Below are positions 18,406-27,106 of a stretch of 64,000 bases of DNA, piece after piece. How positions within the stretch are numbered: position 1 is the first letter of the stretch; the number at the start of each line of letters is the position of its first letter. Source of the stretch: Gemmatirosa kalamazoonensis (GTDB lineage Bacteria; Gemmatimonadota; Gemmatimonadetes; Gemmatimonadales; Gemmatimonadaceae); the NCBI RefSeq assembly GCF_000522985.1, contig NZ_CP007130.1, positions 434,001-498,000 on the forward strand, read 5' to 3'. A program made the position numbers and the translations under genes. The notes beneath the pieces were generated by a model. That model was not told the DNA's origin, did no database searches, and worked only from the letters and a program-made list of their open reading frames with translations.

Positions 18406-20814
18406 ATGCGCGCAAGAGAGAGCCGGGCCCTCACAGTCACCCGTGTCGTGCTGCTCGCGGCCGCGCTCGCTACCCGCGCGGCGGCGCAGGCGCCGCGCCC
18501 GCTCCTTCCGATCGACTTCACACGGTCATGGGAGCACCGCGCGTTAGGCAAGCCGGTGCGCGCGCGTCGCGCCCTCGACGACTCGGCCGGCCTCGCGAGC
18601 TGGCGAATGACGGGCACCGGCCGCCTCTCCATCGCGCCGGTGCCGGCCCTCGGCGGCGAGCGCGCGCTGCGCGTCGACATGCAGCTCTTCACCGGCCCGC
18701 CGGCGCCGACGCGCAACCGCCTCCCCGCGGTGACGCTCTCGCGCGCCCTCGGCGGCGAGGACTGGCGCGACTACGATCGGCTGTCGCTCTGGGTGCGCGC
18801 GGAGGCGACGGGCTTTCCGACGGTGCCGCTGCAGATCGTGCTGCACAACGACGGCGAGGAGAAGGTGCCCGACCGCTACGGGCGCGAGGGGATCCACTAC
18901 GTCACGCTCGTCGGCGACGGCGCGTGGCGGCAGGTGGTGTGGGGGATCGACCCGCTGGCGCGCGACCGCGTGACGACGCTGGAGATCGGCTACTGGGCGA
19001 ACAAGATGCTCGCGGCGCCCGAGGACCGCGTGGCGTTCGAGATCGCGCGCGTGGAGCTGCAGCGCGTGGACGCGGACCATCACACGGGATGGGCGCCGGC
19101 GCCGGGAACGATCGCGTTCAGCCACACCGGGTACGACGCGAACGGCGCGAAGACGGCGCTCGCGAGCGGCCTCGCGTCGCGCGACTTCGAGGTGCTGCGC
19201 GTGGACGACTCCGCGCTCGGCACCGTGGCGCTGCGCGGCACCGTCGACGACGTGCGCACGCGGCTCGGCGCGTTCCAGCGGCTCGACTTCTCCGCGCTGC
19301 GCGCGCCCGGCACGTACGTGCTGCGCGCGGGCGACGTCACCACGCGGCCGTTCCGCGTCGGGCCCGACCCGTGGACGCGTACCGTGTGGGAGGTGCTGAA
19401 CTTCTTCTACGCGGAGCGGTGCGGCTTCCCCGTGCCCGGGGTGCACGGCGTCGATCACGTCGACTGGTTCGCCACGCACGGCGCCGAGCGCGTGACGATG
19501 AGCGGCGGCTGGCACGACGCGGGCGACCTGTCGCAGGGCGTGATCAACACCGGCGAGGCGACGTATTCGATGTTCGCGCTCGCCGAGCGCCTGCGCACGT
19601 CCGGTGGCGATCCGGCCCTCGTCGCGCGGCTGCTCGAGGAGGCGCGGTGGGGGCTCGAGTGGACGCTGCGCGTGCGCTTCGACGGCGGATGGCGCGTCGC
19701 GTTCGGCAGCCACAACCTGTGGACGAACGGCGTCGTCGGCGACGCGGACGACCGCACGGTGGAGGCGAAGAACAACCCGAACGCGAACTACATCGCCGCC
19801 GCGGCGGAGGCGCTGGCCGCGCGCGTGCTGCGCGCCGACGACCCCACGCTCGCCGCCCGCAGCCTGCGCACGGCGGTGGACGACTGGGAGGCCGCGATCC
19901 GCGGGGTGGAGAGCGCGGCGACGCGTCACACGCCGGCGTTCGCGGCGACGCGCATGGAGCTCGCGTCGATCGGCGCCACGGCGTCGCTGGAGCTGTACCG
20001 CGCGACCGGGGAGCGTCGCTACGCCGACACCGCCGCGTCGCTCGCGCGCACGATCGTCGCCTCGCAGCAGACGCGTCCCGTCGGCCGTGAGCTGCCGCTC
20101 GCGGGCTTCTTCTACACGGGCCCCGACCGCGACACGCTGTTCCACCAGTTCCACCGCGGCAACGACCAGGCGCCGATCGTGGCACTCGCGTCGCTCGCTG
20201 AGACGCTGCGCGACCATCCGGACCGGCCGGCGTGGCTGGCCGCCGTCGCGCGGTGGGCGGACTACGAGAAGCGGATCGCCGCGACGACGTCGCCGTGGGA
20301 CGTGCTGCCCGCGTACGTCTATCGCCTGCGCGACACCGTGGAGGTGCCCGACTCCGGCGCGCTGCATCTCGCGACGCGCGCGAGCTATCGCGCACAGGTG
20401 CTCGCCGGCCTGTCGTTAGGCGACGACTGGTACCTGCGCGCGTTCCCCGTGTGGTTCGCGCGGCGCGGCAACTACGGCGTGCTCCTGTCGCAGGCGAAGG
20501 GGCTCGCCGCCGCGTCGCGGCTGCGCGGCGACTCCGCGGGGCTCGATCTCGCGCGGCGGCAGGCGCAGTGGATCGTCGGCCGCAACCCGTTCGCGCAGAG
20601 CACGCTGTACGGCGAGGGCTACGACTGGGCGCAGCAGTACAGCGTGTCGTCGGGCGACTTCGTGGGCGCGCTGCCGGTGGGCATGCAGAGTCGCGGCGAC
20701 TCCGACCTCCCGTACTGGCCGTCGCAGAACATGTACGTGTACAAGGAGGTGTGGGTGCACCCGGCGAGCCGGTGGCTGTGGCTGATGGCGGATCTGTTAG
20801 GCGGGCCGCGGTGA
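18406..20814 (+). CDS. Secreted glycoside hydrolase family 9 (endoglucanase-like)
   Basis: The 802-residue precursor has a signal peptide (VVLLAAALATRAAAQ). An N-terminal carbohydrate-binding-like beta domain comes first, then an Ig-like domain of the CelD_N type (about 225-335). A GH9 alpha/alpha-barrel follows from about 340. The barrel has GGWHDAGDLSQ with the catalytic-base aspartates, and late motifs IVGRNPFAQSTLYGEGYDW and a Glu in YVYKEVWVHP, where the family has its acid. GH9 enzymes cut beta-1,4-glucans outside the cell. Three CGTTAGGC-type sites lie within the gene. No cellulosome module is seen. Confidence 0.85.
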   Translation: MRARESRALTVTRVVLLAAALATRAAAQAPRPLLPIDFTRSWEHRALGKPVRARRALDDSAGLASWRMTGTGRLSIAPVPALGGERALRVDMQLFTGPPAPTRNRLPAVTLSRALGGEDWRDYDRLSLWVRAEATGFPTVPLQIVLHNDGEEKVPDRYGREGIHYVTLVGDGAWRQVVWGIDPLARDRVTTLEIGYWANKMLAAPEDRVAFEIARVELQRVDADHHTGWAPAPGTIAFSHTGYDANGAKTALASGLASRDFEVLRVDDSALGTVALRGTVDDVRTRLGAFQRLDFSALRAPGTYVLRAGDVTTRPFRVGPDPWTRTVWEVLNFFYAERCGFPVPGVHGVDHVDWFATHGAERVTMSGGWHDAGDLSQGVINTGEATYSMFALAERLRTSGGDPALVARLLEEARWGLEWTLRVRFDGGWRVAFGSHNLWTNGVVGDADDRTVEAKNNPNANYIAAAAEALAARVLRADDPTLAARSLRTAVDDWEAAIRGVESAATRHTPAFAATRMELASIGATASLELYRATGERRYADTAASLARTIVASQQTRPVGRELPLAGFFYTGPDRDTLFHQFHRGNDQAPIVALASLAETLRDHPDRPAWLAAVARWADYEKRIAATTSPWDVLPAYVYRLRDTVEVPDSGALHLATRASYRAQVLAGLSLGDDWYLRAFPVWFARRGNYGVLLSQAKGLAAASRLRGDSAGLDLARRQAQWIVGRNPFAQSTLYGEGYDWAQQYSVSSGDFVGALPVGMQSRGDSDLPYWPSQNMYVYKEVWVHPASRWLWLMADLLGGPR

Positions 20815-20826
20815 CCGCGCTCCGCC

Positions 20827-21046
20827 GCTCACGCGGAGCCGCGGAGAACGCGGAGCACTGCCTTGGCAGAGCTGTCCTCTTTGATCGAACCACAGGTTCG
20901 AGGTGCTGGGCGAGTACGACTGGGGATCCAACGGCGATGAAGAGGATCTCGAGATCGTTTCAATCGCACTTGGATCCCCGGAGTACTCGCCTGGCACCTG
21001 GCCCCATCGGTGTCCTCTGCGGCCCTCTGCGTCCTCTGCGGCTCAC
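20827..21046. repeat. Palindromic intergenic element, family A, copy 1
   Basis: The core 20900-20999 is a nested palindrome: GAGGTG..GGCGAGTAC..TGGGGATCC on the left mirrored by TGGATCCCC..GTACTCGCC..CACCT on the right, with GAGGATCTCGAGATC at the centre. The outer arms are runs of roughly 10-bp units, CGCGGAG-type on the left and CTCTGCGKCC-type on the right. Close copies occur at 26835-27106 and 34989-35222. It fills the gap between the GH9 gene and the selenocysteine cassette. Confidence 0.75.
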
Positions 21047-21063
21047 ACGAACCGCCCCGATTC

Positions 21064-21133: not shown

Positions 21134-21730
21134 ATGGAGCCGATGTTCCTTCCCGAGGTGGAGGCGAACCCGAAGCCGGGGGCGTACACCGCCGCGATCG
21201 AGCAGATGAAGCAGGCGGGGATGCAGGAGTACCCGCAGATCTGGCACCTGTTCGGCTATCTGCCGAGCGCGACGCAGCATCTCGCCCGGTTCACGCAGGA
21301 GATCCTGCGCGGGCCGGCGCCGCTGTCGCCGGGGCTGCGGGAGCTGATCGCGGCGTACACGTCGCAGCGCAACCACTGTCCGTTCTGAATCGCCTCGCAC
21401 GCCGCGGTCGCGGCGGAGCTGCTGGAGGACGAGGCGCTGGTGCAGGAGGTGCTCCACGACGCGCAGACGTCGCGCCTCGACGCTCGACACAAGGTGCTGT
21501 TCGCGTTCATCGACCGCGTGAACCACGACTCGCCGCGCATCACGGCGGACGACGTGGCGGCGGTGCGCGCCGCGGGCTGGACGGACGAGGCGCTGTACTT
21601 CGCCATCACCGTCTGCGCGCTGTTCAACTTCTACAACCGCTGGATCGACGCCACCGGCGTGCACGCGCTCTCCGATGAGGCGCACCGCGCCGGCGGCAAG
21701 CGCATGAAGACCGGGACGTACGCGCGGTGA
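21134..21730 (+). CDS. AhpD-like selenoprotein (CxxU, in-frame UGA at 21386-21388)
   Basis: Read straight through one TGA, this is a 198-residue carboxymuconolactone-decarboxylase/AhpD-fold protein. The UGA is codon 85 in NHCPFU-IASH, exactly where AhpD-like peroxidases have CxxCxxxH, so it should encode the resolving or peroxidatic selenocysteine (C82, U85, H89). The frame after the UGA runs on unbroken to 21730 with GC-rich third positions and normal AhpD sequence (VLFAFIDRVNHDSPRIT, LFNFYNRWIDATG). A SECIS-like hairpin follows the UGA. AGAGG lies before the ATG. It is 50 bp upstream of selA in the same operon. A thiol/selenol peroxidase or oxidoreductase role is inferred from the family. 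Confidence 0.85.
21386..21436 (+). promoter_or_regulatory. UGA selenocysteine codon with bacterial SECIS hairpin
   Basis: Seventeen bases after the UGA is a 6-bp stem CGCCGC/GCGGCG (21400-21405 with 21410-21415) closed by the loop GGUC. GGUC is the core of the E. coli fdhF loop that SelB binds, at nearly the same distance. A 7-bp lower stem CGCCTCG/CGAGGCG (21391-21397 with 21430-21436) encloses it. Confidence 0.75.
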
Positions 21731-21780: not shown

Positions 21781-23148
21781 GTGTCCGACACCCCGGCGCT
21801 CGCGCGCCTTCCCTCGGTCGACGAGGTGCTCCGGCATCCCGCGTTCGCCGCAGCGGCCGGCGGGCTGGCCGACGCGTACCGCACGCGGCTCGTGCGGCAG
21901 ACGATCCAGACGCGTCGACGCCGCCTCCTCGACGACCCGCCCGCCGACGGCGCCGACGTGCGCGCGGACGTCGTCGCCGACTGTGCGCGCGAGGCGCGGG
22001 CGCTCGCGCGGCCGTTCCCGCGGCGCGTGATCAACGCGACCGGCGTGCTGCTCCACACGAACCTCGGCCGCGCGCCGCTCGGCGAGCTGCTCGCGGGGCT
22101 CGAGGACACGCTCGGCGGCTACACCGACCTCGAGTGGGACGAGGCCACGCTCGGCCGCGGCAATCGCGACGAGGGACTCGCGGCCCAACTCCGCCTGCTC
22201 ACCGGGGCCGAGTCGGCGATCGTGGTGAACAACTGCGCGAGCGCGCTGCTGCTCGCGCTGCACACGCTCGCCGCGGGACGCGCGGCGCTCGTGAGCCGGT
22301 CGGAGCTCGTGGAGATCGGCGGCTCGTTCCGCGTGCCGGAGATCATCGAGGCGAGCGGGTGCCGACTGCGCGAGGTCGGCACCACGAACCGCACCCGCGC
22401 CGCCGACTTCGAGCGCGCCGCGACCGACGGTGGCGCGGCGGTACTGCTCAAGGTGCACCAGTCGAACTTCGTGCAGCGCGGCTTCGTGGAGTCGGTATCG
22501 ACCGACGAGATGGTGGCGCTCGGCCGCGCGCTCGGGGTACCGGTGCTGGAGGACAACGGCTCGGGGCTCGTGGTGCCTAACGGCGCGCCGCCGCTCGGCG
22601 ACGAGCCGCACGTCGCCGCGAGCGTGGCGCGCGGCGTGGACGTCGTGTGCTTCAGCGGCGACAAGCTGCTCGGCGGCGTGCAGGCGGGGATCGTCGTCGG
22701 CCGAGCGCCGCTCGTGGACGCGATGCGGCGCAACCCGCTGTTCCGCGCGCTGCGCCTCGACAAGGTGCGCATCGCGCTGCTGCATCGCTGCCTCGCGCCG
22801 CACCTCGCGGGCGACGAGCGCGGGCTGCCGCTGTGGCGACTGTTCCACGCGGACGTGGACGAGGTGCGCGCGCGCGCGTCCACGCTGCGGCTGCCGTCAT
22901 GGGCGCGGCCGGTGCCCCTCCGTGCCACGCTCGGCGGCGGCTCGAACCCGGAGGCCGACTTCCCGAGCTGGGGACTCGAGCTCGCGCATCCCACGCTCGG
23001 CGCGGAGCGCGTGCGGCGCGCGCTCGCCGGCCGCGACGTGCCGATCGTGGGCTACGTGCGGCAGGACCGCTGCTTCCTCGACGTGCGCACCGTGCTGCCG
23101 GCCGATCTTCCGGAGATCCAGGCGGCGCTCGACACGCTGGATCGTTAG
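21781..23148 (+). CDS. selA: L-seryl-tRNA(Sec) selenium transferase
   Basis: The product is 455 residues, the usual length. This PLP enzyme converts seryl-tRNA(Sec) to selenocysteyl-tRNA(Sec) with selenophosphate. Family signatures are present: RRVINATGVLLHTNLGRAPL, DLEWDEATLGRGNRD, the NNCASALLLAL PLP pocket, and the Schiff-base lysine in CFSGDKLLGG (K295 by my count, the number used for E. coli SelA). It starts at GTG. The TAG stop lies in a CGTTAGGC octamer, and selB starts two bases later. Confidence 0.95.
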   Translation: MSDTPALARLPSVDEVLRHPAFAAAAGGLADAYRTRLVRQTIQTRRRRLLDDPPADGADVRADVVADCAREARALARPFPRRVINATGVLLHTNLGRAPLGELLAGLEDTLGGYTDLEWDEATLGRGNRDEGLAAQLRLLTGAESAIVVNNCASALLLALHTLAAGRAALVSRSELVEIGGSFRVPEIIEASGCRLREVGTTNRTRAADFERAATDGGAAVLLKVHQSNFVQRGFVESVSTDEMVALGRALGVPVLEDNGSGLVVPNGAPPLGDEPHVAASVARGVDVVCFSGDKLLGGVQAGIVVGRAPLVDAMRRNPLFRALRLDKVRIALLHRCLAPHLAGDERGLPLWRLFHADVDEVRARASTLRLPSWARPVPLRATLGGGSNPEADFPSWGLELAHPTLGAERVRRALAGRDVPIVGYVRQDRCFLDVRTVLPADLPEIQAALDTLDR

Positions 23149-25057: not shown

Positions 25058-26104
25058 TCACACGAGCCGGATGGTCGGCTCCGCGCGCGGCGTGAGCACG
25101 CCGAACGCCCGCAGATCGAGGCCGCGCTCGCGCGTCACGCGCAGGAACTCGTCGCGCCCCGCCGGATCGACGGCGACGAGGAGACCGCCGCTCGTCTGGG
25201 GGTCGCAGAGCAGGTCGCGCCACGCGTCGGGGAGCGGTGCGACGCGGTGGCCGTAGCTCGCGGCGTTGCGCGTCGTGCCGCCGGGGACCGCGCCTGACGC
25301 GATGTACCCGGCCGCCGACGCGAGGCGGGGTACGTCGTCGACGCGCACCTCGGCCGAGAGGCCGCTCGCGTCGCAGACCTCGAGCAGGTGGCCGAGCAGG
25401 CCGAAGCCCGTGACGTCGGTCATGGTCGCGACCGCGTCGAGGCGCGCGAGCGCGGGGCCGACGTCGTTCAGCGTCAGCATCAGCCTGCGGACCTCGGCGC
25501 AGTCGTCGTCGCGCAGGATCCCGCGCTTCATCGCCGTCGTCAGCACGCCGACGCCGAGCGGCTTCGTGAGATAGAGCTCGCAGCCAGCGCGCGCCTGCGC
25601 GTTCGTGCGCACGTCGGCGCGTCGCCCGGTGCCCGTGACGGCGAGGCCGAAGATCGGCTCGGGCGCGTCGATGCTGTGGCCGCCAGCGAGCGCGATGCCG
25701 GCCCGCGCGCACGCCTCGGTCGCGCCGCGCAGCACGTCGCCCGCGATCGCCGCGTCGAGCAGCGACACCGGCCAGCCGAGTATCGCGATGGCGAGGATCG
25801 GCGTGCCGCCCATCGCGTACACGTCGCTGATCGCGTTCGTCGCCGCGACGGCGCCGAAGTCGAACGCGTCGTCGACGATCGGCATGAAGAAGTCGGTCGT
25901 GCTGATGAGGACGCGCTCGTCGTCGAGCGCGTACACCGCCGCGTCGTCGCGCGCGCCGTGGCCGACGAGCAGCCGCGGATCCGCGAACCCCGGCCCGATG
26001 CCGTCGAGCATGCGGGTGAGCACCGCGGGGGAGATCTTGCAGCCGCAGCCGGCACCGTGCGCGTACTGCGTGAGCCGGACCGGCGATGCCGCGACGGACG
26101 TCAT
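25058..26104 (-). CDS. selD: Selenide, water dikinase (selenophosphate synthase)
   Basis: The 348-residue protein makes selenophosphate from selenide and ATP. The catalytic loop is [11 protein letters not shown], with Cys in the position that is Sec or Cys in the family. Other family motifs are [37 protein letters not shown], and the C-terminal DPQTSGGLL. It converges on selB and starts 22 bp from the 3' end of tRNA-Sec, which is on the same strand, so the tRNA and selD may share a transcript. A GCCTAACG octamer lies in that gap. Confidence 0.95.
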
Positions 26105-26126: not shown

Positions 26127-26223
26127 TGGCGGAAGCGTGCGGGAATCGAACCCACCAAACCCGGCGGAACCGGGTCGCATCGGTTTTGAAGACCGAGGAG
26201 GCCACCAGACCCCATCCGCCCCC
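26127..26223 (-). tRNA. selC: Selenocysteine tRNA, anticodon UCA
   Basis: The 97-nt gene includes an encoded CCA. Features typical of tRNA-Sec are a 6-bp D stem GGGGTC/GGCCTC with a UGGU loop, an anticodon stem TCGGT/ACCGA with loop CTTCAAA (anticodon TCA), a long variable arm ACCCGG/CCGGGT, and a T arm GTGGG-TTCGATT-CCCGC. The acceptor stem is unusual: seven pairs with two G-U, and a G-A mismatch at the eighth. It lies next to selD on the same strand. Confidence 0.9.
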
Positions 26224-26834: not shown

Positions 26835-27106
26835 TCGCGCGGGGACGCCGGGAACGCGGAGAACACCATCGAACCGCAGAGGACTGTCCTCTTTGATCGA
26901 GCCACAGGTTCGAGGCGCTGGGCGAGTACCCTGGGGATCCAGCGGCGATGAAGAGGATCTCGAGATCTTTTCGATCGCCCTTGGATCCCCAGAGTACTCG
27001 CCTGCCACCTCGCCCCATCGGTGTGCTCGGCGGCCCTCTGCGTCCTCCGCGGTTCATTCACACAGCCAAGGCAGTGCTCCGCGTCCTCCGCGTCTCCGCG
27101 TGAGAC
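26835..27106. repeat. Palindromic intergenic element, family A, copy 2
   Basis: The core (about 26910-27012) matches copy 1 almost base for base: GGCGAGTAC, CTGGGGATCC, GGCGATGAAGAGGATCTCGAGATC and the mirrored TTGGATCCCCAGAGTACTCGCC arms. The right flank (27066-27106) is the reverse complement of the left flank of copy 1 (GCAGTGCTCCGCGTCCTCCG against CGCGGAG...CGGAGCACTGC). The flanking modules can therefore be exchanged or inverted between copies. Confidence 0.75.

Follow-up and report, generated by a model that had tools for sequence, protein, structure and literature searches.

The window analysed here, a stretch of 64,000 nucleotides from Gemmatirosa kalamazoonensis, very probably encodes one full-length selenoprotein of the peroxidase-related AhpD group, whose reading frame is hidden by an in-frame TGA (Table 1). 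The open reading frame listing gives two pieces of this gene, 21095/21134-21388 and 21440-21730, which lie in the same frame and are split by one TGA. Ordinary gene calling indeed breaks the gene there, as a sequence-only reading of the window had stated. When TGA was translated as selenocysteine (Sec, U), the frame stayed open to 21730, and the only other TGA was the terminal stop at 21728-21730. The joined protein contains the motif C82-P-F-U85-I-A-S-H89. It matched the Pfam CMD profile (PF02627) with 40.2 bits (cut-off 23), NCBIfam TIGR01926 (peroxidase-related enzyme) with 86.6 (cut-off 81.8) and TIGR00778 with 35.4 (cut-off 27.8). The start was placed at M1, which is nearly invariant in 44 homologues. 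From the comparisons below, we infer that Sec is inserted at residue 85. Annotating the TGA as a stop yields a truncated protein without its active site, and the same error is expected in at least 80 other genomes.

Table 1. Features of the selenoprotein locus, in window coordinates
Feature	Position	Strand	Basis
Sec-AhpD gene, TGA read through	21134..21730	+	198 residues plus stop, ATG start at 21134; translation and profile matches
In-frame TGA, Sec85, second position of CxxU	21386..21388	+	TGA in 83/83 aligned homologues
SECIS hairpin CGCCGC[GGUC]GCGGCG	21400..21415	+	loop 21406-21409; stem 21400-21405 with 21410-21415
selA, L-seryl-tRNA(Sec) selenium transferase	21781..23148	+	TIGR00474 436.8 bits (cut-off 267.9); PF03841
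selB, Sec-specific elongation factor, C-terminal SelB winged helix	23151..25016	+	TIGR00475 284.5 (cut-off 242.25); PF09107
selD, selenide water dikinase (Cys form)	25058..26104	-	TIGR00476 409.2 bits (cut-off 125)
tRNA-Sec, anticodon TCA	26127..26223	-	ARAGORN; RF01852 68.1 bits (gathering 47)

Conservation of the gene across the TGA

Homologues were scanned with one genome per species. The scan found 80 homologous loci with 58-75% identity, mainly from Acidobacteriota (Bryobacterales, Solibacteraceae and Acidobacteriaceae) and Gemmatimonadota. Nearly all of them span the entire gene, and the TGA is at the same codon in all 80 and in the three copies of the source genome. This codon aligns to a functional Cys codon of the AhpD family. 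The protein is conserved after the TGA as well as before it. In an alignment of 44 sequences, E70, C82, C/U85 and H89 are invariant, and the densest invariant stretch, LF-F-N-W-D--GV, is located 3' of the TGA (L163, F164, F166, N168, W170, D172, G175 and V176). The homologues thus speak for read-through, and their alignment placed the TGA on the Cys codon among invariant relay residues.

In a survey of Gemmatimonadota, a relative was present in 139 of 249 genomes. One internal TGA was found in all 14 listed matches with more than 50% identity and in most of the weaker matches listed. Cys forms were found in relatives at L067, L069, L074, L079, L113 and L114, and none was seen among the genes with more than 50% identity, so that the clade of the window gene looks obligately Sec at the sequence level. 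In a tree of 69 rows, this clade comprises 37 rows and is entirely Sec. A Cys group stands as its sister with weak support, and Sec predominates in, or makes up the whole of, two further groups. The tree requires at least two changes between Sec and Cys, whose direction is not readable because the root is arbitrary. In some Acidobacteriota (L067, L069, L074 and L079), Cys-form AhpD paralogues lie directly 5' of the Sec-AhpD gene, sometimes several in tandem. The clade is common in abundant soil phyla and includes cultured members which are suited to direct tests of Sec use.

Selenocysteine machinery and gene copies in the genome

The complete Sec decoding trait (selA, selB, selC and selD) is present in the genome, and selA, selB, selD and tRNA-Sec are all located within 5 kb 3' of the Sec-AhpD gene. 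For selB, selD and tRNA-Sec, these are the sole copies over cut-off in the genome. The Sec-AhpD gene, selA and selB share one strand and are separated by 50 nt and 2 nt. Since the sel cluster yielded no sigma-70-like promoter, we infer co-transcription of the Sec-AhpD gene with selAB only from this spacing. A glycosyl hydrolase family 9 (cellulase-type) gene is located just 5' of the selenoprotein gene (18406-20814). A palindromic dispersed repeat of about 200 nt flanks the sel cluster (20828-21056 and 26884-27104). With about 40 occurrences genome-wide, the repeat is not specific to this locus, and the idea that its copies at 20.9 and 26.9 kb delimit a specific mobile cassette was rejected.

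The claim that the gene heads a selA-selB operon stood for the physical order, but not as a feature of the family. No selA or selB was found by tblastn in the flanks of the other 80 loci (L004-L083, some with short flanks), where one partial selD was detected (L080). Among 12 further contexts from Gemmatimonadota, two of them from genomes among the 80, selAB linkage was seen only at L097. In this sister genus the order is kept, and a distant Sec-AhpD gene is located at the far end, beside tRNA-Sec and selD. Because the linkage is absent at 80 loci, it was rejected as a conserved family operon. Neighbouring genes gave no clue to function, since those that recurred were artefacts of overlapping frames or genes common in soil bacteria. 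At the level of whole genomes, selB exceeded its curated cut-off in 35 of the 41 gene-holding genomes tested; the other six, of unstated completeness, had partial pieces (three) or none (three). In a phylum-wide tRNA-Sec search, matches below the cut-off carry no information, since ordinary tRNAs give weak matches too.

The genome consists of four contigs with 7,479,215 bases in total, including C2 (5,311,527) and C4 (1,040,503). The published genome of strain KBS708 has a chromosome of 5,312 kb and, as a satellite element or plasmid, a replicon of 1,041 kb (PMC3974934). The window is on C4, the 1.04-Mb second replicon, as are the sole selB, selD and tRNA-Sec over cut-off. A second Sec-AhpD copy is located on C4 at 356440-357030 (L084:8441-9028), 99 kb from the window gene, and is 89-90% identical to it. 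The two copies are near-identical over a stretch of about 330 nt that includes the UGA and the SECIS and diverged at both ends, a pattern that looks like recent gene conversion. A third Sec-AhpD gene (C2:4652333-4652740, L085:7340-7747) has 37% identity, the motif CTFU and the SECIS CTCCGC[GGTC]GCGGAG. It is on the 5.3-Mb chromosome, a replicon separate from that of selA, selB, selD and tRNA-Sec. No close copy was found in plasmid records.

Three other families were checked in the genome, non-exhaustively. No in-frame stop was present in the matched stretches of molybdopterin oxidoreductases (PF04879) and peroxiredoxins (PF00578), and SelW/Rdx (PF10262) had no match. It is conceivable, though rather doubtful, that the Sec apparatus on the second replicon is kept solely for AhpD-fold enzymes, of which this replicon encodes two and the chromosome one. 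If so, production of the chromosomal selenoprotein would require a genetic-code extension borne on a plasmid, and ahpD-selAB would form a Sec module that is self-contained and brings its own client.

The hairpin downstream of the UGA

In the bacterial SECIS model, the hairpin carries a G in its apical loop and follows the UGA at a distance of roughly 16-37 nt. The hairpin of the window has this loop G and lies in this range. Its inner stem is GCCGC/GCGGC and its loop begins 17 nt 3' of the UGA, and across the whole clade the loop is GGUC or AGUU and starts at the same distance. The sequence-only reading had taken the GGUC hairpin as the SECIS and proposed a fold search around the UGA as a check. 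The hairpin is present, but its folding energy was not above chance when compared with shuffles (z -0.12, and z +0.36 for 71 nt). Such an energy is unremarkable in this GC- and Ala-rich DNA, and single-sequence folding was dropped as evidence for the SECIS. The position and the loop proposed for the hairpin held up, and covariation was added to them; the folding energy of the sequence alone gave no argument for it.

In 82 sequences, both partners had changed in 44 cells of the stem (14.3 in shuffles), and standard pairs made up 98.9% of cells (93.9% in shuffles). Neither value was reached by any of 500 shuffles. The loop-closing pair changes from G-C (46) to A-U (34), and C-G changes to U-A at pair 18-27 (6) and at pair 15-30 (4). 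Because the peptide HAAVAA is nearly fixed, the stem changes are synonymous and occur in step. Only GCC and GCT are used for Ala90, and only GCG and GCA for Ala93. The codon entropy at A90, A91, V92 and A93 is 0.38-0.98 bit, compared with 1.44-1.72 at the four conserved Ala positions that are not part of the stem, where all four codons are in use. Of 105 Sec genes, at least one of which was counted via two loci (L003 and L085), 103 have a stem of 5 bp or more at the SECIS place, against 63.9 expected from synonymous redraws. In Cys genes, the same place had such a stem in 3 of 11 (4.0 expected), which is no hairpin beyond chance. In two further Sec clades of the phylum this place is taken by other stems, for example that of the chromosomal gene and ACGGAG[CGGGT]CTCCGT. 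On these comparative grounds the hairpin is real, and the evidence is carried by covariation, not by folding energy.

At L019, L020, L022 and L027, Val92 is replaced by Gly and the loop changes from AGUU/GGUC to AGGU/GGGU, with the stem kept. With loci L115-L131, L085 and L110-L112, Gemmatimonadota contain at least three AhpD-fold Sec clades, in which the SECIS stems differ and the distance to the UGA is nearly equal.

These data bear on three other explanations of the locus. A hairpin could arise as a by-product of the conserved AAVA peptide in GC-rich DNA, which would agree with the folding energy of the window sequence; given AAVA and the codon usage of the family, 20% of codings are expected to combine all six pairs with a GT loop. 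However, this arrangement was observed in 76 of 82 sequences, a count that is not an independent-trial probability because the sequences are related. Moreover, the Ala91-Val92 codons are GCG-GTC or GCA-GTT in all 78 genes coding Val there, the swaps of U-A for C-G affect two other pairs, and the hairpin is absent in Cys relatives, which makes a mere by-product highly improbable. Even less credible is that the TGA truly ends translation, or broke the frame of a pseudogene by mutation, so that the downstream half stays untranslated. The two pieces given by ordinary gene calling agree with it, but the TGA occupies the family Cys codon in every one of the 83 aligned homologues, the strongest invariant block is 3' of it, and selB accompanies the gene in most homologue genomes. 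The mismatches between the C4 copies are also mostly at third codon positions, downstream of the TGA too (4, 3 and 11 at positions 1, 2 and 3). Decoding of the UGA as Trp, Arg or a near-cognate residue is possible in principle and has a similarly negligible probability. The gene is adjoined by tRNA-Sec, selA, selB and selD, its UGA is at the position of the catalytic Cys with a covarying SECIS at SECIS distance, and its own final stop is a TGA. Read-through with Sec is the reading that the comparative data back.

Fold, proposed chemistry and known relatives

The model of the read-through protein is all helical, with a pLDDT of 94.5. Its best structure matches are 6k40, 2oyo, 2prr, 3c1l and 2pfx of the peroxidase-related AhpD group (Z 20-22 over 183-186 residues). 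These Cys-form proteins have nearly the full-length fold in common with the model, and the E/C/C/H relay positions of the aligned 3c1l match those of the window protein. In contrast to the window protein, they contain Cys instead of Sec, with 19-23% identity. The AhpD fold also includes the debrominase Bmp8 (Z 15.9) and sestrins (Z up to 14.8). M. tuberculosis AhpD (1knc and 1gu9) has the same pair of catalytic helices bearing Glu, CxxC and His, but differs in having Cys and C-terminal catalytic helices (Z about 10 over 134-136 residues). The confident fold, the profile matches and the alignment bear out the earlier claim of one AhpD-fold protein with CPFU-IASH.

AhpD-like CxxU selenoproteins (COG2128) were reported in 2005 with 27 sequences from the Sargasso Sea set (PMC1088965), and 299 were found in the Global Ocean Sampling set in 2008 (PMC2398784). 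They appear under TIGR01926 in a 2026 listing (PMC13188914). The window protein matches the same NCBIfam model and shares with this family the CxxU with Sec in second position and the SECIS just 3'. It belongs to a group with 51-90% identity, mainly from Acidobacteriota and Gemmatimonadota, which was not found by name in these three papers. Acidobacteria and Gemmatimonadetes go unnamed in both prokaryotic selenoprotein reviews that were searched. No NCBIfam selenoprotein equivalog reached its cut-off on the window protein. The AhpD-related (seleno)protein models NF041238 (AhpD_rel_CFYUT), NF041047 (GSU3128 family) and NF053654 (YciW-related) scored 41.8, 16.7 and 15.9 bits (cut-offs 175, 110 and 310), which indicates that the window protein is related to these families but not a member. 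The AhpD-like CxxU class has therefore been known since 2005, and the window gene is a previously unlisted and well-conserved case of it.

In M. tuberculosis AhpD, the relay consists of Glu118, Cys130, His132, Cys133 and His137 (PMC3141380). By spacing, Glu118 maps to E70, Cys130 to C82, Cys133 to U85 and His137 to H89, which places Sec at the Cys133 position. We take Cys133 to be the peroxidatic residue of M. tuberculosis AhpD. In the proposed mechanism, SelD would supply selenophosphate, SelA would convert Ser-tRNA-Sec to Sec-tRNA-Sec, and SelB would bring Sec-tRNA-Sec to the ribosome at the UGA via the hairpin. Sec85 would stand where the AhpD CxxC has its second Cys. It likely reacts with peroxide to form a selenenylsulphide with Cys82, which would be re-reduced by a presumed thiol partner, and Glu70 and His89 may serve as the proton relay. 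Peroxide is probably the main substrate of the enzyme.

The protein could also be a real selenoprotein whose main reaction is not peroxide reduction but reductive dehalogenation, as for Bmp8, or thiol-disulphide reduction of the AhpC-adaptor type. Bmp8 (6ohi/6ohj) matches the model with Z 15.9/15.8 over 174-176 residues and has a weak sequence match (E 0.0029), its C82A mutant was crystallised with a bromopyrrole, and iodothyronine deiodinase is a known case of dehalogenation that depends on Sec. However, no recurrent neighbour suggests a halogenated substrate, and the peroxidase-related AhpD structures are nearer to the window protein than Bmp8 in sequence (E 1e-19 to 1e-25) as well as in fold. 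A main reaction other than peroxide reduction is accordingly considered unlikely.
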